A DNA stretch of 64,000 nt from Struthio camelus (taxonomy: Eukaryota > Chordata > Aves > Struthioniformes > Struthionidae). Positions 14,201-55,100 of the stretch are shown here, piece by piece. Position numbers and translations under genes: made by a program. Numbering within the stretch: position 1 is the stretch's first letter; each line of letters starts with the position of its first letter. The notes beneath the pieces were generated by a model. That model searched no databases, was not told the DNA's origin, and saw nothing but the letters and a program-made list of their open reading frames with translations. The DNA is taken from NCBI RefSeq assembly GCF_040807025.1, contig NC_090953.1:488501-552500 (forward strand), written 5' to 3'.

Positions 14201-17200
14201 TCCGCGCGGCAGCTTTTTCCCTAGCAGTTCCCGAACGGCCTGAGCTGTTTGGTGTCGCGGGGTGCAGCGCTCCGTGGGGAGGAGGCCTGGGTCCGTCTCC
14301 GCGCTGCCCCGCGAGGCAGGGCTCCCCGGGCGCTGCGGCCGGCGGCGCTGGCAGGAGCAGGGCGCGCGCCAGGGAGCGGAGAGGCGGCGGGGCGGGCGCG
14401 GGGCCTGCCGGAGCGCGGGGCGGTGCGTCCCTCGCCCCGCGGAGCGCGGCCCGGCCCTGGCGCCGGGGCGCCTGCTAGCGCCGATCCTCTCCCTCCCGGC
14501 TTGGGCCGGGGCAGCGGCGCGCGGCTCTGCGGGAGCGGGGTGGGCAGGGGCCGAGCGCTCTTTGGAGGCCCTCTCCCTCGCGTTGCACTGGCCGGCCTTG
14601 CCGCGGGCGTCCGCCCCGCGTGCCGGCAGGGACCGGCCCTTCTGTCGCGGGCGGCAGGGTGGGATGCGCCACTCCGCAGCCCGGCCAGCCTCTGGGGTGT
14701 GCCGAGGGGAGACGGAAGTGACAGGGCTGCAGAGGGTTTATAAATAACCAGCTGGGAGGCGGCGTGGCCGGCTGGGCTGCGCTGGCGTGGCGCTCTTCCC
14801 GGCCCCGGCCCGGAGCTGCTCGCCGGCCGCTCTCGGCCTCCTGCCAGGGGACGAGCCGTGGCCCAGCCGCAGGGCGGTGGGGGGACGCCGCGGGGGACAC
14901 GGGTATGCTGGGTTTGGGGTGCGCCCTGGGCCCGGTGGCGCCTCTGCAGCCCGTTGGCCACCCCCGGCGGTGCCGTGCGGTGCCGCTCACCGGCCCGGAG
15001 CTGGTGTGGGGCACAGCACCGGTCCCCTCCGCCCCTCCTGTCCCTGGCCAAGGCTGCCGGGGCGGCGGCGGGTGCGGGGGGAGGACGGGGAGCCGGGGCC
15101 GGGGTCTCATGCCCGTCTCGCCCCTTGCTCCGTTGCAGATCTTTGGTGACTATTACCACTTCCGGCACAGCGGCGTGGTGAAGCGCTCGCTCTCGCCCCA
15201 CCAGCCCTGGCACAGCCGCTTGGCCCGGGAGCCGCAGGTACGTGCCGTGCGCCGTGGGTGCCTGCCCCGCTCCTGGGGGCCCGGCCGGGGCGGTGCGTGA
15301 GCCGGGGGCCCCGCTGCGGGCATAGCCATCGTCGCTGGCCGGTGGCCTGCCGCGTTCCTGGAAAGCGGGGCAGTCCCGGCTCGGCGGAGGGCTCCTCTCT
15401 CCGGCGCGTGGGACGAGCTGTGCCAGGCCCCAGCGCGCTGGCCGGGTCGACGCGGTCTGCTGGCCCGGGGCTGCCACGCGGCCGGCGCCCTGCCCAGCGG
15501 GGCGTGCGGCACGGCCGCTGCCAGCGGGCTCCGAGCTGGCCGGCCCGCTGCTCGGCAGGGCCCGGCGCTCCGGCCCGCCGCGCCGCTGGAGCAGAACCAC
15601 CTGGCGCCAGCGCCCGGCACGGATGCCGGGAGCCCCTCTAGCGTGGCGGGACGCCCTGGACCCGCCACCCTGCTCCTGGCGAGCCCGGCTGCGGCAAGGG
15701 GCGTCTCACCGGCCCTGGGTCTGGAGCGGGCTACGAGCTCCCCCGGGCAGGTGGCTGGTGGAGAGGCCGGAGTGTGGGGAGCTGCTGGCCACCCCCAGCC
15801 CAGCGTGCGCTGTCCGGGCTGCCGGCGATGGGGATGTGGCGGGCGCGCGGCAGCGTCCTCCCTTCTGCGCCCCCAGGTGCACTGGCTGGAGCAGCAGGTG
15901 GCAAAGCGCAGGACCAAGAGAGACATCTTCATGGAGCCCACCGACCCCAAGTTCCCACAGCAGTGGTACCTGGTAGGTGCCGGCCGGGGTGCCAGGGCGC
16001 GCGCGGGGCTGTGCGGCACCTGGGCGCCGAGGGGCGGCTCTGCGGGCCCGCGGGGTGCTGAGTGCTGGCTCTGAGGGTGCGGATGCGGGGCCCGAGGAGG
16101 GTTGTCGGGCTGCCCTGCTAACCACGAGCAGGGGAGGGAGGACTGCGGCGGGAGCCCTGTCCTGGGTGCAGCTCGCGAGTTGCAGCTTCCCTGCAAGAGG
16201 CGCTGGCAGAGCTGCGGAGAGCCTGGGGCCATGCTAGCAGGGCAGTCAGCCCTTTGCCTGTCCCAGGATTTGGGACCGTACTCGTGCTGCTGTCTCCATC
16301 GACAAGCTCAGGTGGCCAGCGCAGGTCTGACCTCTGTGAAGGCAGCTTTGTTTATTGAGCCCAAGCAGAACTGAGGGCTGCTGAGTATCCCTTCTGCATG
16401 CCCCTCTGTGGCTGGCCCTGTGCAGCGCTCTGGGCCCGCGATGCAGGGTTGAGCATGTCGTCTGCCCAGATCCCGTGGGGTTTCCTCATCCCTCCACCAC
16501 AACAGAGAGTGGAGCTGAAGCTGCCACTTGCGCGCCCTTGCAGCAGGCCAGGAGGGGTCTGGGTGCACCCCTTGCCGTGCCAGCAGCTTACGTGGCACAG
16601 CTTACGCTGCCAGGACTTCTTTTGGCAGTACAACACAAACCAGCGGGACCTGAACGTCCGTCAGGCCTGGGAGCAAGGCTACACCGGCAAGGGCATCGTG
16701 GTCTCCATCCTGGATGATGGCATTGAGAAAAACCACCCGGACCTGGAGGGCAACTACGTAAGTGCGGGATGCTCCCCTGGGGCGGAGCAGCTCCTGAGGT
16801 CGGGCCGCGTGTCCGTGGGAGCTCGTTGGGGCAGGGCTGTCAGCCCGGTTCAGCCCTGGACCGCGTGGGCTCCCCTGGGCGGGGGGGTGCTGCGGGGAGC
16901 TCGCTGGGCCGGGTGGCTGTTGCTGGCGTGCCTGCTGCGGGGGGACACGGAGAGCAGCAGGGAGCGCCTGCACCCTCCGTTGCTGAGCCCAGCATCGCGG
17001 ACACGGGTTTTGGGCACAGCCCCAGGGCAGCGGCCCTCGGTGGCCTGGGTCGCCAGCCTGTAACTGCCGGGTCTGTCCTCCAGGATCCAGGGGCTAGCTT
17101 TGATGTCAATGACCAGGACCCAGACCCGCAGCCGCGCTACACACAGATGAATGACAACAGGTGAGAAAGGAGGTGGCGGTGAGGGCGGTGGAGCCCAGCT

Positions 17201-26714: not shown

Positions 26715-35560
<8,846 letters not shown>

Positions 35561-37896: not shown

Positions 37897-40800
37897 ATGA
37901 AGCTGAAGAAGCAGGTGACAGTATGTGGAGCTGCCATCTTCTGCGTGGCCGTCTTCTCCCTCTACCTGATGCTGGACCGGGTGCAGCACGACCCCACGCG
38001 CCACCAGAGCGGGGGCAACTTCCCCAGGGTGAGGGCAATGCCGGAGGGCTGCGGGGATGAGCTGTGTCGCCCCTGGGGCAGTGCGGGCAGGCGGCGAGGG
38101 CCAGGCCTGCTGGGTGGCCAGCTGGCACCCAGCAAGGGGCCTCTGCTGCTTGTTACCTTCTGGCATCTGCGCATGCGGCAGAGCCCCGTGCCAGGGCACC
38201 GCTCTCACTGCAATGTCTGTGGTCCAGAGCCAGATCTCGGTGCTGCAGAACCGCATTGAGCAGCTGGAGCAGCTGCTGGAGGAGAACCACGAGATCATCA
38301 GCCACATCAAGGACTCGGTGCTGGAGCTCACGGCCCACGCGGAGGGGCAGCCGGCACTGCCCTACCACACCCCCAATGGCTCCTGGGTGCTGCCCCCCGA
38401 GAGTCGCCCGAGTTTCCTCTCCGTCTCCCCGCAGGACTGCCAGTTTGCCCTGGGGGGCAAGGGCCAGAGCCCGGACCTGCAGGTGGGAGGCAGAAGTCTC
38501 AACCCTAGGGGGGGGCGGGGGGCCCGTCCCTGCCTGGGCAAGGGTCCTTGGCGTCCCGGCTCTGCTGTGCTGGGAGGACCCGTGGGGTGTTATTGCCGCC
38601 GTATCAGGGTGTCCGTGGTGTCTCAGCTCTGCTATGTCGTGGGTCTGTCGTCCCCGTGTCTGCCCCCGCTGAGCCCTGTCCTCCACCTGGCAGATGCTGG
38701 CCGTGTACTCCCTGCTGCCTTTTGACAACCAGGATGGTGGCGTGTGGAAGCAGGGCTTTGACATCACCTATGAGCCCACTGAGTGGGACTCGGAGCCGCT
38801 GCAGGTGTTCGTGGTGCCGCACTCCCACAACGACCCCGGTGAGCAGGTGGGGAAGGGCGGGCTGGGGGAGGCAAAGGGCTAGCCCAGCGCTGCCTGAGGA
38901 GGGCTTGGCTGTGCTCGGTGACAGCCCCACGTGTGCTGGCAGGTTGGATCAAGACCTTTGACAAGTACTACTACGACCAGACGCAGCACATCCTCAACAG
39001 CATGGTACTGAAGATGCAGGAGGACCCGCGCAGGCGCTTCATCTGGTCCGAGATCTCCTTCTTCTCCAAGTGGTGGGACAACATCAGTGCCCAGAAGCGG
39101 GCTGCAGTGCGGAGGTAGGGTCACCTGGCCCAGGCTCTCTGCACACTCTCTGTTCACGCTGGCAGGCTGCGTTCAGAGGGAGGCGCTGGGTGAGAGCACG
39201 GGGATGCGTGAGGGAAGGACCCTTCATCTCCCCCAGGCCTGCCTGCTCTGGCTTCAGTGCGGTGTCTGCAGGCTCCACACTGCTCACTGCAGGGTGCCCC
39301 GATGTCCTGACACTGGCAATAACCCCCTCGGTGCCACAAGACATCAAAACCACAGAGGTGCATGCAGGAAGAATGAGAAAGAGCCAGGGTGCTGCTAGCA
39401 CTGGGGCCTCTGCAGCGGGGACCTCGTGAAGCGTGGCAGGAAGCTGGTCTCACCTTGCGCTGCTCCCTGCGCTCCCCGTGGGCTGGGGAAGTCCTGTTTG
39501 TTGCTTTAAACCCAAGCACACAAGCACTGCAGCGGAGCCTGAGCAGTTTCAACAGCCCATGAGGCTCAGGGCACCCTCGAAGGGTGGGAGACCTTGAGAG
39601 CAGAAAAGTGCAGTGGGAGAAGGATCCTTTGTCAGCCCCTCAGGTCCCCAGGGAGGGCTGGAGATGGAGGATGCGATGAACACGGGCTGCAGGGCACAGC
39701 AGAGAGCTTTGGGCTGGTACTTACTGTGGGGATGGGTTCTGGTTGGGGGCCTCAGCCTGCTTCGTGCTGTGGAGGTCCGGCTGTGGCCGCGTATGGGGCG
39801 ACTGGACTTTGCACAGCAGCCGGTGATTGCGGGGGCTGCAGGTGAAACCCAGGTGGCTCCATGAGTGTGTGGGTGCTGTGCCATGGGCACACATTCCACA
39901 ACAGGGCTCTGCCCTGACCTGATCATGTCTCCCGTGTGTCCCCCTTGAAGGCTGGTTGGGAATGGGCAGCTGGAGATGGTGACGGGTGGCTGGGTGATGC
40001 CCGACGAGGCCAATTCCCACTACTTTGCCATGATCGACCAGCTGATCGAGGGGCACCAGTGGCTAGAGAAGAACATCGGTGAGAGCTGGGTGGGATGCGG
40101 GACGCAGGGTGGGAGGAGCAGGAGTGTTGGCTGGGGGCCTGGCTGATGCGCCGACAGGACCAGCACTGCCCCCGGTCCCTGGCACGAGCCTGCTCCGTGC
40201 AGCCAGGCAGGGTGCCAGGGCCTGACAGGTCTCTGTGTCTCCAGGTGTGACGCCCCGGTCGGGCTGGGCTGTTGACCCCTTCGGCCACAGCTCCACCATG
40301 CCCTACCTGCTGAAGCGCTCCAACCTGACTGGCATGCTCATCCAGCGGGTGCATTACGCCATCAAGAAGCACTTTGCCGCCACCCAGAACTTGGAGTTCA
40401 TGTGGAGACAGACGTGGGGTGAGGGGCTGCTGGGGGTGCGACCGCAGGGAGGGGACCTGCCAGGGACCGGTGACAGCAGGGGAAAAGCTACCGACCTCTT
40501 TCCTGTGTGGCCAGAGAGCTGAGTGCCAGGAGGTGATGTCTCTGCTCTGGGAGATGACCCTGCAGTGTTTCTGCCCTGGGGAGAGCCCCAGGGTGTCTGC
40601 CCAACAGTGCCAGTGCCTGGCCCTGCCAGGGAGGCTGTTTCTGTGCTCTCTGAGCTCCAAACAGGCGAGCGTGACTGCGCGCCAGGTCTGCTCTGCCCCA
40701 GCGGCCATCCCTGCTCTCGTGTGCCCTGTGCCCAATTCCTGCCAGGGGATAGGCAGGGGAGAACCGTCTTCGGTGCTCACCTGTCCTTGGTCCTGCAGAC

Positions 40801-46800: not shown

Positions 46801-47113
46801 CCAGCGGGGTACCCTGGGTGGCCACGCTGAAAGCCTGCAAGCTGGTGCCGGCGCAGCATGGACGTGGCTGGGTGGGGCGAGCCCCGTGCCTGGCGTCGCG
46901 CTGCCGGGCATCGGGTCCCGCTCACCTGGGCCGCCCACCTTCTCTCTCCTCTCTCCCTAGCTGGCCCTGGGCAGCCTCTTCCAGGGGCTGGAGCTGAGCT
47001 CCCTGCAGCCCACCTCACTGACCTTGATGTACCCGCTGGGCACTGCCCCCAACAGCACCACCGTCCGCCTGGACCCCATGGAAATTGCCACCTTCCGCAT
47101 CCGCCTGGGGTAG
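37897..47113 (+). CDS. MAN2A2: Alpha-mannosidase IIx (complete, 22 constitutive coding exons)
   Basis: Golgi type II membrane glycoside hydrolase (GH38) trimming GlcNAcMan5GlcNAc2 to GlcNAcMan3GlcNAc2, committing N-glycans to the complex type. Exons: 37897-38028, 38228-38482, 38694-38838, 38943-39114, 39951-40078, 40245-40418, 40799-40985, 41078-41255, 41465-41667, 42055-42237, 42413-42527, 42772-42839, 43082-43247, 43572-43808, 43901-44023, 44127-44241, 44447-44580, 44697-44838, 45128-45261, 46064-46258, 46380-46490, 46961-47113; phases join to 1149 aa (human 1150). Short cytosolic N-terminus MKLKKQ, one signal-anchor helix ([19 protein letters not shown]), stem coiled coil ([20 protein letters not shown]), zinc ligands in PHSHNDPGW, nucleophile Asp in [11 protein letters not shown], zinc His in [16 protein letters not shown]2A2 rather than MAN2A1 by position next to FES and by the N-terminus. 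A possible extra in-frame exon is listed separately. Confidence 0.97.
45628..45705 (+). CDS. MAN2A2: Candidate 78-bp cassette exon of MAN2A2
   Basis: Between the exons ending at 45261 and starting at 46064 lies a 78-bp segment with acceptor CCCATTCAG, donor GAG|GTAACG, phase 0 on both sides and no stop. It would insert 26 residues starting [17 protein letters not shown]. The local sequence (about 45560-45705) is much less GC-rich than its surroundings. Human MAN2A2 as I know it goes directly between the flanking exons, so inclusion would be optional. Use in transcripts is not proven. Confidence 0.5.
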
Positions 47114-47300
47114 TGTCTGACGAGGTGGGAGAGGAGCAGACTGGCCGCGCAGCGTGGCAGCAGCTGCTGAGCCCAGCAGCACCAGCGCTGCCCGGAGGGG
47201 CCGGCCCGCAGCCCCACGGCTCAGCACGCAGGCCCAGGGCAGGAGAAGCCGAACTTGCAAAGGCTGTTGCCTTTTTATTTATTAGTCCTTTGTTCTCAGA
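47114..47300 (+). terminator. MAN2A2: MAN2A2 3'UTR and presumed 3' end
   Basis: GC-rich 3'UTR following TAG at 47111-47113, ending in an AT-rich stretch TTTTTATTTATTAG around 47272-47285. No AATAAA or ATTAAA on the plus strand was found here, so a variant signal or a more distal site must be used. The same stretch reads AATAAATAAAAA on the minus strand, but no minus-strand gene is visible to use it. Confidence 0.35.
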
Positions 47301-48600
47301 TAGATTTCAGACTGTGAACTGTTAGAGCAGGGCTGTGCAGAGGCTGCCGGATACTGCCTGAGAGAAGAGGGCAGATACGCTCACGCTGCTCTGACCGGGG
47401 CTGGGCTGGCGGGGGGCAGCAGCCCTGACCTTGCTGCTGCCAGCAGGGAGATGCACAGCTGCCCTGGACTATTGCATGGCTGCCGCAGGAGGATGCCTGC
47501 CCTGGTGTGAGGGGCAGGGGCCCCCGCCAGCGCCTGGGCTCCGGCCGGCCCCCCTGGCGCAGCACCAGGCTGCCAGGAGCCTAGCAGGTCTGGGGCAGCT
47601 GGCCAGGGGGGTGCTGGGAACTGGAGGCGGAGCTGCACCGAGCTCACCTGGAGCTTGTAGGAAACATGAAACCGTTTCCAAGGGCCCTGGTCCCCGTCTG
47701 GTTTGTGCTTCTCCCGCTGCTAACCTGAGGGAGGCGAGAACGGTGCAGCCTGGGGGGGCGGGCAGCTCCCCCGGCTGCCCTAGATGCACCGGGGCAGGTG
47801 CTGAGCTGTGCCCAGCAGCCCGGGGCACACACCAGGTGCGATGGGGACTGCGGGGAGCCGGGCTGAGCCCTGCTCCACTGCGCACCGTGCCTGCCCTGCG
47901 GTGCTCCCCAGGGCTGAGCAGGGTGCCAGGAGCTGGGCGTTTGCGGGCAGTGGGGGGCACGGCTGGCGCAGCCATGTGTGGGGACAGGCAGTACCTGGCG
48001 CTGGCACCCAGTGAGGGGCTGGGGCGCGAGGTTCGTGCCGCCGCTGGAGGCAGGTGACCAGCAGCGCCTGGGCCGGGCTGGTGGCACCGCAGGAGCGGAG
48101 TGGCATGGCGCGGCCAGGCAGGGGCCAGGGGCTGCTGCAGTGCCCGCGCGCGCCGCGCGGCTGGGGCGAGCTCCATCCCAGCTCCCCGCACCAGGGGCTA
48201 GCTGCTCCCCGGGGCCGTAGCCAGCCGGGGTGGGGGGTGCGCGGGCTGAGGGCGCTGCTGTGGGGCTCGGCAGGCCCTGCCCCGCCGGCCGGAGAGGGGA
48301 CGGCGCGAGGCCCCGGCTGGCTGGCAACGCTCCCGAGCCACGAGGGGCTGCGTGTCTGCAGCGCTGCCGGTTGCTGCCCCCGGCGCTCTGGGAGCCGCGT
48401 TGCCAGCAGCATCCTCCCGGTTGCTGTGGGGAGCGCCGGGGCTGCCACCGCCTCCAGCTCCCTGGGGTCTGATTCCTGCAGCAGGGAGGGCAGGCAGGGA
48501 GGCCGTGCCGGCTGTGCCGTGTCTCGGTGTGCCCAGCACAGCCGCCTGCGCAACCAGCACCCCTCGGGCTGGCCTGGCAGCAGGGCCAGGGGATGCTGGG
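47300..48600. other. Intergenic MAN2A2 to SHISAL1-like, no gene recognised
   Basis: GC-rich DNA with no recognisable protein family on either strand. I specifically looked for HDDC3-like HD-domain sequence, because human HDDC3 lies between MAN2A2 and UNC45A on the opposite strand, and saw none. Confidence 0.5.
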
Positions 48601-49348
48601 CACCCTGCGATGGTGGCCCAGGCCGTGGTGCGCAGGCAGGGATGGTGATCCAGGCCATGGTGCGCAGGCGGGGATGGTGGCCCAGGCCGTGGTGCGCAGG
48701 CGGGGATGGTGGCCCAGGCTGTGGTGCACTGGCAGGGATGGTGATCCAGGCCATGGTGCGCAGGCGGGGATGGTGGCCCAGGCCGTGGTGTGCACCCTGC
48801 GATGGTGGCCCAGGCCGTGGTGCACAGGCAGGGATGGTGGCCCAGGCCGTGGTGCACTGGCAGGGATGGTGATCCAGGTCGTGGTGCGCAAGCGGGGATG
48901 GTGGCCCAGGCCGTGGTGCACTGGCAGGGATGGTGATCCAGGCCGTGGTGCGCAGGCGGGGAATGGTGATCCAGGCCATGGGGCGCAGGCGGGGATGGTG
49001 ATCCAGGTCGTGGTGCGCAGGCGGGGATGGTGGCCCAGGTCGTGGTGCGCAAGCGGGGATGGTGGCCCAGGCCGTGGTGCACTGGCAGGGATGGTGATCC
49101 AGGCCGTGGTGCGCAGGCGGGGAATGGTGATCCAGGTCGTGGTGCGCAAGCGGGGATGGTGGCCCAGGCCGTGGTGCACTGGCAGGGATGGTGATCCAGG
49201 CCGTGGTGCGCAGGCGGGGATGGTGATCCAGGCCATGGGGCGCAGGCGGGGATGGTGATCCAGGTCGTGGTGCGCAGGCGGGGATGGTGATCCAGGTCGT
49301 GGTGCACAGGCAGGGATGGTGATCCAGGTCGTGGTGCGCAGGCGGGGC
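48600..49348. repeat. 32-33-bp minisatellite between MAN2A2 and the SHISAL1-like gene
   Basis: About 22 copies of a unit with the core GGGATGGTGATCCAGG followed by CCGTGGTGCGCAGGCG. Units alternate between GTGATCCAG and GTGGCCCAG and between CGCAGGCG and CACTGGCA. Multi-unit blocks are duplicated (about 48890-48970 resembles 49060-49135). It generates the periodic Thr-Trp-Ile and Pro-rich frames seen on the minus strand. Confidence 0.95.
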
Positions 49349-49349
49349 G

Positions 49350-50016
49350 TGCAAGCTCTCTGGGGAGCCTGCGCCGGGCGGCCCTGCGCTGGCGAGCTGG
49401 CAGCCACATGCAGGCAGCAGGCTGGCTGATCTCGCCTGGCCCCTGCACAGACACATTAGTGCAACGAGCAGCTCCGGTGTCCAGCTAATGGAGCAGCTGG
49501 CGGGGGGCCAGGCTGCTCAGTGCGGGGCCCGCTGCCTGCCCAGCCGGGGTGCCCCACCGCCCTGGGGGCTGCTGGCACCGCGGTGTCTCTGCAGCCCGCC
49601 GGTGGCCCAGGACCCTCCGGCCAGGGCCAGCCCTGGCGTCAGCTGCCTTGGCAGGGGCCAGCTCCCAGCTCCCCCGGCCGAGGGCTGCGTGGGGAGGGCC
49701 CTGCCCTGTGCCCCTGCTCGGGTCCGCAGCAGCCGGGTGCCGAAGGGCCAAGATGCCCCAGGAGGGCGACGGGACCCCGCGCCCCGGCTGCGGGGCTGGT
49801 GAAGGAGCCTCCATCCCAGCCTTGGCCCCGAGGAGCTCATTAGTGATGCTCCCGCCTCCCGCTCCCGGTCCCTGCGGAGCAGGGCAGTAAGTGCAGGAGG
49901 CTCTAATGGCTCCAAGAAGCTCTTGATGGGCCGGTGATGGAGGCGGGAGCAGGAGGGGCTGCGGTTTCGCCTCAGACAGCGCTGGGGCTGCCGGTGCCCC
50001 CAGCACGGCCGGGAAG
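49350..50016. other. Region upstream of SHISAL1-like gene
   Basis: No coding exon recognised. A 10-12 bp inverted repeat (CTCCCGCCTCC near 49852 and GGAGGCGGGAG near 49939) could form a hairpin with a loop of about 75 bp. The final 200 bp are moderately GC-rich and could hold the promoter and 5'UTR of the next gene. The ATG context GGGAAGATGC has A at -3. Confidence 0.35.
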
Positions 50017-51081
50017 ATGCTGAGCGGGCTCCTGCTGGGGCTGCTCCTCTCGGCGGCGGCGTGCCCCGGGCTCCTGGGGACAGGTAGGGCCCCGCTCGGT
50101 GCCACGGCCAGGTGCCGTCCCCCGCGGCCTGTCGAGGCGTCGAGGTGGCGTGGGCTCGGCCACGGGAGCTGTGACCCCGCGCCCGGCTGCCCCACGGCGG
50201 CGCGTCAGTGGGGTGAGGCGCGGTGCCACGGGGTGGTGGGGACGGGGAGCACGGGGCCGTCGGGGGGCCGCTCCGCCGGCCGGGGGTTCGCCCCGTCCCT
50301 TCCACCGAGGCTGCGTGCCGGGGGGGGCTGTTTCCCTGCCGTCCGGGCCCGGCGGCGGGCCGGGGGGCAGCGGCGGGGCCGCAGCCCCTCTCCTCCGCGT
50401 TCGCCCTTGGCCAGCGCCGTGGGTCGCGGGCCGCCGCCCCGTCCCCGCCCGTCCCGTCCCGCCCCGCCCTGGCGGGGAGCCGCCGCCCCGCGGAGCGGCC
50501 GGAGCTGAGCCCGGTCCGGGGCGGCTCCGCTCGGGGCTCGGCGCTGCGCGGGGGGGGGGGGGGACCCGCGGCGGGGGGGACCCGCGCGGCCCCGGCCCGG
50601 CTCCCGGGAGCGCGGAGCGCTGGCCGGTGCCGCCAGCGCCCGCCTCGCCCCGGCAGCGGCCGGCGGCAGCCTGCACCTCTGCGAGGGCTACGCGGGCCCC
50701 GACGGGCGCTACCACGCCGGCTTCTACTGCCCGCGGCTCGGCGACCCGGCCGGCCACCGCTACTGCTGCCGGCCCGGCCCGCGCGCCCTCAAGTCCTGCT
50801 GCCCCCGCCCGGCCCCGGAGGCCCCCGCCGGGGCGAACGGCTCCAGCGCGCCGGCCGCCGGCCCGCTCAGGTGGGCGCCGACCCCCGACCCCGACCCCGA
50901 CCCCCGGCCCCGGCCCCGGCCCCGGCCCTGAGCCGCCTCCCCGGCCAGGAACCCGCTGGCGCTGCCCTTCGTGGGGCTCTACGGCCTCCTCGTCCTGCTG
51001 CTCGCGGCCGTCGACCTCCTGCACTTCTGCCGGCTCCAGCGGGGCCGCCCGCCGCCCCCGGCTGCCCGCGCGGAGGGATGA
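50017..51081 (+). CDS. SHISAL1-like single-pass membrane protein (complete, three exons)
   Basis: Exons 50017-50083, 50657-50870 and 50949-51081 join in phase to 137 aa. Residues 1-22 are a Leu/Ala signal peptide. The ectodomain has six Cys in the order C-EGY, YCPRL, YCC, SCC, interrupted by DGRYHAGFYCPRLGD, which closely matches the DHKGRYHFGFHCPRL region of SHISAL1. A single NGS glycosylation sequon follows. The last exon encodes one transmembrane helix (LALPFVGLYGLLVLLLAAVDLL) ending LHFC, again like the SHISAL1 helix, then only about 20 basic/Pro residues, against a much longer tail in SHISAL1. Shisa-type proteins act in the secretory pathway and as receptor auxiliary subunits; the function here is unknown. 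The extreme GC content could explain it being missed in annotations. It occupies the interval of human HDDC3. It is a SHISAL1 relative, not clearly an orthologue. Confidence 0.78.
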
Positions 51082-51279
51082 GCGCCCGGCGCCGCGGCCC
51101 CCTCCCCTCCGCTCCGCTCCGCTGCGGCCGGGGGGCGCCGGGGCACGGCCGGGGCGCCCCCCCGCAGGGCTCGGGGTGCCGGGCCCGGCAGCAGCGGCTG
51201 GCAGCCGCGGGCCCCGGCACGGCGCCTGCTCGAAGGGGCGCGGCGGGCGGGGGGGGGTCGGGGCGGCACCCGCGGGAGC

Positions 51280-51990
51280 GCACCGGGGGCAGCGGGGGCA
51301 CCCAGGGGGATACACGGGGGACAGTGGGGGCACGCTAGGGTGCACTGGCGCACCTGGGGGGGTATATGGGTGACAAAGGGGGCACAGTAGGGTGCACTGG
51401 GGCATCCAGGGGGGTACATGGGGGACAAGGGGGGCACACCAGGGTACACTGGGAACCCCCTTGGGGCACCTGGGGGGACATAGGGGGAACACCAGGGTGC
51501 GATAGGAACACCCCTAGGGGCACGTGGGAGACAATCGGGGCACAGTAGAGTGCAATGGGGGCACCCAGGGGGCACATGGTGGGCACACCAGGGTGCAATG
51601 GGAACATCCTTAGGGGCACACAGGGCACAATGGGAGCACACTAGGGTGCAATGGGGACACCCATGGCGGCACATATGGGGCAATGGGGGAACACGGAGGG
51701 GCAGCGGGAGCACCGAGGGGTGCAATGGGCAGCACCCATAGGGGTATGGGAGCTGTAATGGGGGCACCTATAGGGGTGCGCATGGTGGGTGCAATGGGGA
51801 CATTCAGGGGCATGCATGGGGGGTGCAATGGGGACACCCTTGGAGGCATATGGGGGGTGCAATGGGGACACCCATGGAGGTACATGGGGGCGCACACGGG
51901 GGTGCAATGGGGACACCCTTGGAGGCATATGGGGGGTGCAATGGGGACACCCTTGGAGGCACATGGGGGCGCACACGGAGGCACAAGGCG
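51280..51990. repeat. G-rich minisatellite between SHISAL1-like gene and UNC45A
   Basis: About 20 degenerate copies of a 33-40 bp unit with the core GGGGTGCAATGGGGACACCC followed by TTGGAGGCACATG. The 3' copies (51790-51980) are the most regular. It reaches within 150 bp of the UNC45A promoter elements. Confidence 0.92.
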
Positions 51991-52117
51991 CGCGCAACGG
52001 GGTCGCGGCGGCAGCGCGCGCAGATTGCGCGCACGCGCGCTGCGGCCGGGGCCGGGGCGCCCCCTGGGGGCGCGCGGGGGCGCTGCAGGCTCGAGCCCGC
52101 CCCGCCCCCGGGGACTC

Positions 52118-52187
52118 GTCACGTGACGCGGGGGGGGGCGTTCCGGGTTCCCCGGGCGATCGGCGGTGACGTCACGGGCGCGGCGCG
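52118..52187 (+). promoter_or_regulatory. UNC45A: UNC45A core promoter with CLEAR palindrome and CRE
   Basis: A perfect GTCACGTGAC palindrome at 52118-52127 matches the CLEAR/E-box consensus bound by MiT/TFE factors. A perfect CRE, TGACGTCA, lies at 52167-52174, only 13 bp before the ATG at 52188. The region is CpG-rich and TATA-less. Factor binding is inferred from motif identity only. Confidence 0.6.
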
Positions 52188-55100
52188 ATGGAGGCGGCGG
52201 TGAGCGGGGCCGGGGGGGGCCGGGGGGGGCCTGACCGGGGTGCTGGGACCGGGACCGGGGGGGACTTGGGGGTCGGGAGGGCCCTGGGCGGGACCGGGGG
52301 GCCGGGACCAGTGGGACTGGGCGAGGCTGATGGGACCGGGGGGGGAGCTGGCCGGGACCGGGGGGGCCGGGGGGGAGCTGGCCGGAACCGGGGGGGCCGG
52401 GGGGGAGCTGGCCGGGACCGGGGGGGCCGGGGGGGCCTGGCCGGGACCGGGGGGGCCTGACCGGGACCGAGGGGACTGGGGGGGAGCTGCCCGGGACTGG
52501 GGGGACCGGGGGGGGGGACTAGGGGGACTGAGACCGGGACTGGAACCAGGGGGACTGGGTAGAGCTGGCTGGGACCGGGGGAGCCTGGGTGGGACCGGGG
52601 GGACCGGGAATGGCCTGGCTCTTACTAGGGGGGGCTGACCAGGCCTGGCTGTGACTGGGGGGAGCTGGCCAGGACCGGGGGAGCCAGGGGGGTGCAGTCG
52701 TGACCGATGGGGTGGGGAGGGCCTGAGGGGGGGCCTGGCGTGGACCAGGGTGTTGTGGTGGGGCCGGGCAGCTGCGGGGCGAGGGCCTTTCCCGGGAGCC
52801 CCTCACAGATACCCGTCCCGGGCCCATCCCCGGGCTGTCGGGGCAATGGGGGCCCGTCCCAAGGGCCTGTCACTGCCCCGTCCTCAGGGCTGACGGGGCG
52901 ATGGCTGTCTGTCCTAGGAGCTGTCATCGCCCCGTCCCCGGGGCAGCTGGGGCGACGAGGTTTGTCCCGGGCCCATCCCTGGGGCAGTCTGGAGGGTCGT
53001 GACCTGTCCCAGGTCCGTCCCTGCATGGCATGGATGGGGTGGGGACCCTTTTCCAGGGATCCCCCCAGGCAGTGCCCCTGTCCCACCCCGGTGCTGGTCT
53101 CGCAGGTGACGGCGGGGCAGCTGCGCGAGCAGGGCAACGCGCTGTTCCAGGCGGGGGACCACGCTGCGGCCCTTGCCGCCTACACGCAGGCGCTGAGCCT
53201 CTGCGATGCCGAGTCGGAGAGAGCCGTGCTGCACCGCAACCGCGCCGCCTGCCACCTGAAGCTGGTGAGAGCGGGGGCGGGCGGGCGTCACCGTGCGCCC
53301 TGCAGGAACCGACCTGTCCGGACTGGCCTGCCGGGGCGTGCTGCTGCTCCGGCCTCTCCGGAGCTGCCTGGTAGTGTCCTGTCCCTCCCTAAGAGGCGGG
53401 TAACTCTCCGTGCCAGCAGGTAGCAGAGCAGAGTGACCAGGGTGGCCAAGTAGTATATCTCCTTGAACTGATGCTGCGGAAACATCTGTTTTCCAGGGCC
53501 CTTAGGACCCTTCCTTCTTGTTGCATTGGCTGCCTGCCCTGCTTCCTCTGCTCTTCTCTTCTCCTGGTCTATCTGATGCTGTCCCACCTCTTTAGTGGGC
53601 TGTCTGGGCCTGGGCAGCACACTACTGTCCATGTCAAAGATGCACAGATGCTCTGCGTTGGGTCCCCAGACAGTCACAGTGTCTCTGGTCTGCTGGCGTG
53701 GAACGGTCTCTGAAGCAAGTGGGAAACACAGATGGATAGGGAGCGCCATTGCAGTGGGCACTCAAAGGGCACGAGGCGGGGGCTTATGGCTCCTCAGGAA
53801 CCCTTGTGAAGGCTGTGTTCCTGCGAAGGGCCAGATGCCCCGTCATACCGGTTCATTGTCCTCGGTGACTGTGTTTCCATTCTCAAACCCCCACGGTCAT
53901 TTCCCTACACGCTCCTCTAAAGAGTCTGGTGCTGCCTCTGCCCACAAGCTGGGGTGCATGTGACCTACATGTCTACCTGTGGGCAGTGAGGCAGGCCGTT
54001 TCCTTCTCACCAGTTCTTTCTCTGCAGGAAGACTACGCCAAGGCAGAAGCTGATGCATCTAAAGGTACTGTCGGAGCATGGCTGGTAGGAGACCGGTCTC
54101 TGTGTGCTGCCTGTCTGTTGAGGCAGAGAGGAGTGGTCCAAGGGCTCTGCGACGCATCTCTCGCTTGTCCTCAGCCATCGAAGCCAATGGACGGGACGTG
54201 AAGGCGTTGTTCCGCCGTAGCCAGGCGCTGCAGAAGCTGGGCCGCTTGGACCAGGCTGTCAGTGACTTGCAGAGGTGTGTGAGCCTGGAGCCCAGGAACA
54301 AGGCCTTTCAGGAGGCGCTGCGCACCCTGGGGAGCAGCATGCATGAGAAGGTGAGCTGGGGAGACCACTGGTAGGGCTGGCTGTGTGCTGCTGTTGTGGA
54401 GCGCTGCAGGTATGGTCTGTTCAGGGGAATGGTGAGGGTTGAGCTGCTGTTTCTGATCTTTCAGATGAGGACAATGTCCTGCACGGACTCTAAGGTGGAC
54501 CAGATGTTTCAGATCTTACTGGATCCTGAAGAAAAGGATGCAGACAAGAAGCAGAAGGTCTGAACTCTAGGGAGCAGAGGGGGATATGGCTTGGACGGAA
54601 GGCAAGGAGGGGGAGGAATTACCCTTCCTGACTCAGCGCTGCTGGCTGAACTGTGCTACCCTGCGGGGGCAGAATGTGCTCTGCAAGGGTTGGGGTGGAA
54701 GGCGGGTGCTCGTGGCTGCCCTGGTTACCTGGCAAGCTCCTGTGGGGCAGGTTCCCTGCTCACAGTGAGCTCCATTCCGTGGCTGAGCCGCCCCGATATG
54801 TGGGCTGGCGCCCCAAACATGACTCTCCTCTCCTAGGCTGCGCAGAACCTGATTGTGCTGGCACGAGAGGAGGCCGGAGCAGAGAAAATCTTCCAAAGCG
54901 ATGGCGTGCGGCTGCTGACGCGGCTCCTCGACACGGCCAAAGCTGACATGATGCTGGCGGCCCTGCGCACCCTGGTGGGGTTGTGCTCCGGGCACCGCTC
55001 CCGGGTAGGTCACATCATAGCTTCTCCTGCTCGATGAGGCCTGGCCCGGGGGGCCTGATATCTGGGCGGCTGTGAAGCGTGTCAGGCAGGGAAGCGTGGC

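Follow-up and report, generated by a model that had tools for sequence, protein, structure and literature searches.

A probable SHISAL1-type gene in very GC-rich DNA between MAN2A- and UNC45A-type genes of Struthio camelus

An open frame lying in very GC-rich DNA of Struthio camelus, between genes of the MAN2A and UNC45A types, raises the question of whether it is a working protein-coding gene and, if so, to which family it belongs. The window, by which we mean the whole 64-kb stretch of DNA that was analysed (64,000 nucleotides; G000:C12:488501-552500), carries on its + strand, in this order, FURIN-like, FES, MAN2A, Shisa-like, and UNC45A-type genes, which is presumably the order of human 15q26.1. 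The first gene is taken to be FURIN-like from motifs at 16713 and 17512 on the + strand, and the best PDB matches of FES (35102-35557, + strand) are Fes/Fps. An exon of the MAN2A type (38673-38879) matches alpha-mannosidase II in the PDB, which cannot separate MAN2A1 from MAN2A2, and a C-terminus ending at 47110 is presumably MAN2A-like, as judged from a motif. On the other side, a TPR exon of the UNC45A type (53106-53267) has as its best natural PDB protein SMAP-1 (2dba), which we take to be another name for UNC45A; two engineered TPR proteins outscore it. The location between MAN2A2 and UNC45A that was given in a preliminary description of this DNA is thus borne out by the flanking exons. 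The corresponding human interval is assumed to contain HDDC3. In a Pfam scan of 10 ORFs from the 39 listed between 49500 and 52000, no HDDC3-like domain was detected, the sole match being to DUF6769 below the cut-off (E 0.028), and short motifs assumed for HDDC3 had no match in the 64-kb window.

The Shisa-like gene occupies positions 50017-51081 and has the following features.

50017..50083, + strand: coding exon 1 (67 nt), encoding a signal-peptide-like N-terminus and ending in phase 1 (splice reading, hydropathy, and match to SHISAL1 exon 1)
50084..50656, + strand: intron 1 (573 nt), GT-AG (splice reading)
50657..50870, + strand: coding exon 2 (214 nt), encoding the cysteine domain and stalk and ending in phase 2 (splice reading, Shisa_N, and SHISAL1 comparison)
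50680..50802, + strand: six-cysteine core from Cys31 to Cys71, with CC-9-CC spacing (Shisa_N, hydropathy and Cys positions, and domain comparison)
50836..50844, + strand: NGS sequon at residue 83, opposite the NLT of SHISAL1 in the alignment (sequon comparison)
50871..50948, + strand: intron 2 (78 nt), GT-AG (splice reading)
50949..51081, + strand: coding exon 3, encoding the helix and a short tail and ending in the stop codon TGA (splice reading)
50956..51027, + strand: hydrophobic helix, residues ~97-120 (hydropathy and SHISAL1 alignment)
51028..51078, + strand: 17-residue tail without a PY or PDZ-binding motif (motif check)
50000..51249, no strand: CpG-island-like stretch with a GC content of 82-85% and a CpG o/e of 0.87-0.94 (500-base windows)

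The joined CDS of 414 nt encodes 137 amino acids followed by a stop, with no frameshift, and the splice sites read CAG/GTAGGG...GGCAG/C for intron 1 and CAG/GTGGGC...GGCCAG/G for intron 2. Three in-phase exons and a 137-residue product had been proposed, and every coordinate proved correct, with GT-AG sites throughout. The count of six cysteines holds for the ectodomain (residues 31, 47, 59, 60, 70, and 71), but two more lie outside it, i.e. Cys16 in the signal peptide and Cys121 directly past the helix. As had been claimed, a single NGS sequon and a single hydrophobic helix are present, the latter being a predicted transmembrane segment whose top 19-residue hydropathy window (2.5) starts at residue 97. 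The cytosolic tail, previously put at about 20 residues, is indeed short and has an exact length of 17; after residue 120 it includes four consecutive prolines. The extreme GC content described earlier was found in the 500-base windows as well as at third codon positions, where it reaches 97% in the CDS and 100% in exon 2.

Membership in the Shisa family is supported by the Shisa_N profile (PF13908), which scores 25.9 bits on the 137-residue protein against a curated cut-off of 22 (E 1.1e-5), is the sole Pfam-A family at E <= 10, and gives 27.2 bits for this gene in a genome-wide profile search. The protein also shows the Shisa architecture of a Cys-rich N-terminal domain followed by one predicted transmembrane segment, and it matches Shisa-3 in the PDB (5m0w, E 0.0027), the cysteine cores of the two being alignable, although the gap between the CC pairs is two residues shorter in 5m0w and an extra cysteine lies inside it. 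According to the accessible part of one source, the C-terminal region of Shisa proteins is proline-rich and often bears PY or PDZ-binding motifs (PMC10531659). Neither motif occurs in the 17-residue tail; both are also absent from SHISAL1 of the same genome, read to its first stop, so that neither motif is a defining feature of the SHISAL1 branch and the difference between the two proteins lies in tail length (17 versus 86 residues). An alignment-free fold prediction for the 70-residue exon 2 product (window:50659-50868) gave a mean pLDDT of 48 and a pTM of 0.24, and this model is therefore too poor for a fold search. Among prokaryote contigs, 588 stretches fit a pattern and none encodes a relative, as expected for a vertebrate gene.

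The genome (1.45 Gb, 262 contigs) was searched in both directions, with only the best candidates being scored. Using the exon 2 and 3 residues of the window gene, three places reached E <= 0.001 among those candidates, namely exons 2 and 3 of the gene themselves and SHISAL1 exon 2 on C1 (5.6e-7). The reverse search with SHISAL1 returned nine places in total at E <= 10 among the best candidates scored, led by its own two exons, followed by the window gene (1.0e-6) and then a SHISA3-type gene (0.095). A weak match to the SHISAL1 helix and tail start at G000:C1:74692645-74692755 (E 0.21), which contains one internal stop, is probably due to chance.

SHISAL1 (KIAA1644) was assembled from ten genomic pieces on the minus strand of G000:C1 (ATG at 78574720, exon 2 at 78567626-78567413, and exon 3 from 78559043), its C-terminus being taken as the open frame up to the first stop. 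Both genes have three coding exons, of which the first two are 67 and 214 nt long in each, with intron phases 1 and 2, the same six-Cys pattern with CC-9-CC spacing, a conserved helix, and a sequon at residue 83 (NGS in the window protein and NLT in SHISAL1). They differ in the tail, which comprises 86 residues in SHISAL1 when read to the first stop, in intron length (7027 and 8369 nt in SHISAL1 versus 573 and 78 nt), in the number of sequons (five versus one), and in third-position GC content (48% in exons 2-3 of SHISAL1 versus 97% in the window CDS). No SHISAL1-tail-like stretch was seen in a by-eye reading of the three frames past the stop of the window gene.

The two proteins align without gaps over 120 residues, 36 of which are identical, and the identities are distributed as 20/50 in the cysteine domain, 11/26 in the helix, 4/22 in the signal peptide, and 1/22 in the stalk. 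When residues were shuffled, the observed score was reached in 0 of 20000 trials for the cysteine domain and likewise in 0 of 20000 for the helix, whereas the signal peptide, stalk, and tail were at shuffle level (11351, 7423, and 3471 of 20000, respectively). Codon agreement in the cysteine domain amounts to 28, 27, and 18 of 50 at positions 1, 2, and 3, against 12.4, 12.4, and 14.9 expected from composition; the helix shows 11, 19, and 11 of 26 against 6.1, 10.1, and 8.8, its third positions being slightly over expectation too, and exon 1 and the stalk are near expectation. Since third positions of the domain are near random while the protein is conserved, selection on the protein has probably acted over a long past, with which a recent death of the gene is still compatible. 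The likeness of the ectodomain core and helix to SHISAL1 noted in the preliminary description thus receives support from the shuffles, and its assignment of the gene as SHISAL1-like from the reciprocal best match, the shared spacing, the aligned sequon, and the equal exon lengths and phases. Taken together, the reciprocal match, exon plan, cysteine spacing, and codon pattern point to a very diverged, intron-bearing paralogue of SHISAL1, and the window gene is very probably a SHISAL1-type protein-coding gene that works now or did so until recently.

A Shisa_N profile search of the genome yielded 21 places, of which 12 were over the cut-off; the nine below it were left out of the tree. CC-9-CC spacing is confined to SHISAL1 and the window gene, the remaining 10 of the 12 domains having CC-7-CC. 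This spacing and the 67/214-nt, phase-1/2 exon plan were treated as features of the SHISAL1 branch on the basis of the SHISAL1 gene of this same genome. A tree of the 12 cysteine domains (59 columns) grouped the window gene with SHISAL1 and SHISAL2 (SH-aLRT 95.4, UFBoot 71). Within that group, the maximum-likelihood topology paired the window gene with SHISAL2 (41.4/41) and the consensus paired it with SHISAL1 (53); FastTree also gave the window gene with SHISAL1 (0.322). For the relationship to SHISAL1, the exon plan, spacing, and reciprocal matches would carry more weight than a 59-column tree. The names SHISA1-9 and SHISAL2 used for the Shisa loci of this genome are our own presumptive assignments. 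The SHISAL2-type gene (G000:C8:31638055-31638189) resembles the window gene in having a Shisa_N domain that lacks the CCGxC cysteine found in the nine domains of the SHISA1-9 type but differs in its CC-7-CC spacing and in a Met located two residues ahead of the Cys domain, with which it shares an open frame.

In the cysteine domain, the window gene and SHISAL1 share 19 of 53 residues, compared with 42/56 for SHISA2/SHISA3, 37/52 for the SHISA8/9-type pair, 29/52 for SHISA6/SHISA7, and 22/48 for SHISA4/SHISA5. The distance between the window gene and SHISAL1 exceeds those of these pairs, which indicates great age, fast evolution, or both. Two other loci were encountered in the same survey. A domain on a 299-kb contig (G000:C74:84588-84740) is one that we take to be SHISA7-like, and a third cysteine domain of the SHISA2/3 type, with an altered first loop, lies on the minus strand at G000:C11:6288683-6288847. 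The latter may correspond to the putative bird Shisa-1 mentioned in the accessible portion of PMC10531659.

A SHISAL1-type gene at this location may already have been catalogued, e.g. as an orthologue of fish shisa-like 1a or 1b or of a predicted bird or reptile locus, and we consider this a real possibility, somewhat short of an even chance. Fish possess a 1a/1b pair of shisa-like genes, and automatic predictions are available in long-read genomes; the window gene could have its orthologue among the fish shisa-like genes. The available part of PMC10531659 has a table with entries for zebrafish shisa-like 1b and chicken shisa-like 1, and the name shisal1b appears in those portions of the literature that were accessible. 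Against this, no title or abstract start among the matches listed names a SHISAL1 paralogue beside MAN2A2, and SHISAL1 itself is present elsewhere in this genome, so that the window gene cannot simply be equated with it. Prior cataloguing would be compatible with the gene being a SHISAL1 paralogue and would affect its novelty alone.

It is improbable, in our estimation, that the locus is instead a recently dead SHISAL1 paralogue, which was long under selection but has ceased to be transcribed or of use in Struthio camelus. Such a death would be in keeping with the lack of conservation of the signal peptide, stalk, and tail relative to SHISAL1 and with the lack of a canonical polyadenylation signal downstream before 55799: AATAAA and ATTAAA are absent from the + strand from 35780 to 55799, and nine variants of the signal have no occurrence on the + strand in 47001-53200. 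The neighbouring MAN2A2 is likewise devoid of such signals, however, and their absence is therefore no special mark against the window gene; if both genes end before 55799, they use other polyadenylation signals. The reading frame, moreover, contains no frameshift or premature stop, all four splice sites are intact, all six ectodomain cysteines are retained, and the setting is CpG-island-like with a CpG o/e near 0.9.

A chance open frame with an accidental likeness to Shisa is in effect refuted. Long frames abound on either strand of this 77% GC stretch, but GC alone produces them, which leaves frame length without evidential value and homology and exon plan to count instead. Shisa_N over its cut-off, the 0/20000 shuffles for domain and helix, exon lengths and phases equal to those of SHISAL1, and a best match that is reciprocal genome-wide all speak against chance. 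An origin as a retrocopy is ruled out by the introns at SHISAL1 phases and the 67/214-nt exon plan.

We thus regard the window gene as probably a working gene and, as far as seen, an added member of the known Shisa-like family; its present expression is estimated to be likely. A role for the encoded protein can be proposed tentatively. Most likely, it would enter the ER by its signal peptide, where the six-cysteine Shisa domain would be folded with disulphides and one N-glycan would be attached to the stalk. The product would be a type I single-pass membrane adaptor that binds partner receptors through its ectodomain and helix. A tail of 17 residues would recruit few or no cytosolic proteins, which favours action through the ectodomain and helix only; these two parts alone might modulate the folding, trafficking, or clustering of the receptors, or the protein might compete with SHISAL1. 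Receptor binding of this kind is suggested by analogy with other Shisa proteins: in the accessible part of one source, Shisa2 and Shisa3 are linked to the trafficking of receptors for FGF and Wnt, while Shisa6-9 are described as auxiliary subunits of AMPA receptors (PMC7653359). As an adaptor mechanism for the window protein, this scheme is offered with less than even confidence.

Among the matches listed from the open-licence literature, no title or abstract start names a gene of this kind, and no shisa- words occur in the main text of four of the papers listed on missing or hidden bird genes. The main survey of Shisa-like proteins is reportedly that of Pei and Grishin in 2012. That the gene was overlooked because of its GC content would fit a setting of 82-85% GC. 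More speculatively, and in our judgement rather unlikely as a whole, it may represent a second SHISAL1-type gene that dates from about the time of the vertebrate Shisa duplications or earlier, disappeared from mammals, survived in at least one sauropsid, was hidden by GC, and now acts as a natural, tail-less antagonist of SHISAL1. If the gene proves to be expressed and conserved, the SHISAL1 branch, for which the visible portions of the matches listed report no tested molecular function, gains a member, and a natural tail-less version becomes available for probing the Shisa-like ectodomain and helix alone. It would also provide a further case of a gene retained at very high GC content; bird genes in such sequence are reported, in the part of the source available, to be hidden and fast-evolving (PMC8449477).

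The gene is flanked by repetitive DNA on both sides, with a 23-copy, 32-bp minisatellite ahead of it (48609-49347) and several minisatellites downstream (51298-52000). Of the seven CTAATG/CATTAG hexamers in the 64-kb window, four fall just 5' of the gene within 455 bases (49454-49908), where they form two inverted pairs. These hexamers are presumably homeodomain-type sites. As the motif was picked after being seen, the cluster serves as a lead only; in first-order simulations of 49000-50016, four or more hexamers occurred in 0 of 5000 runs (mean 0.036).
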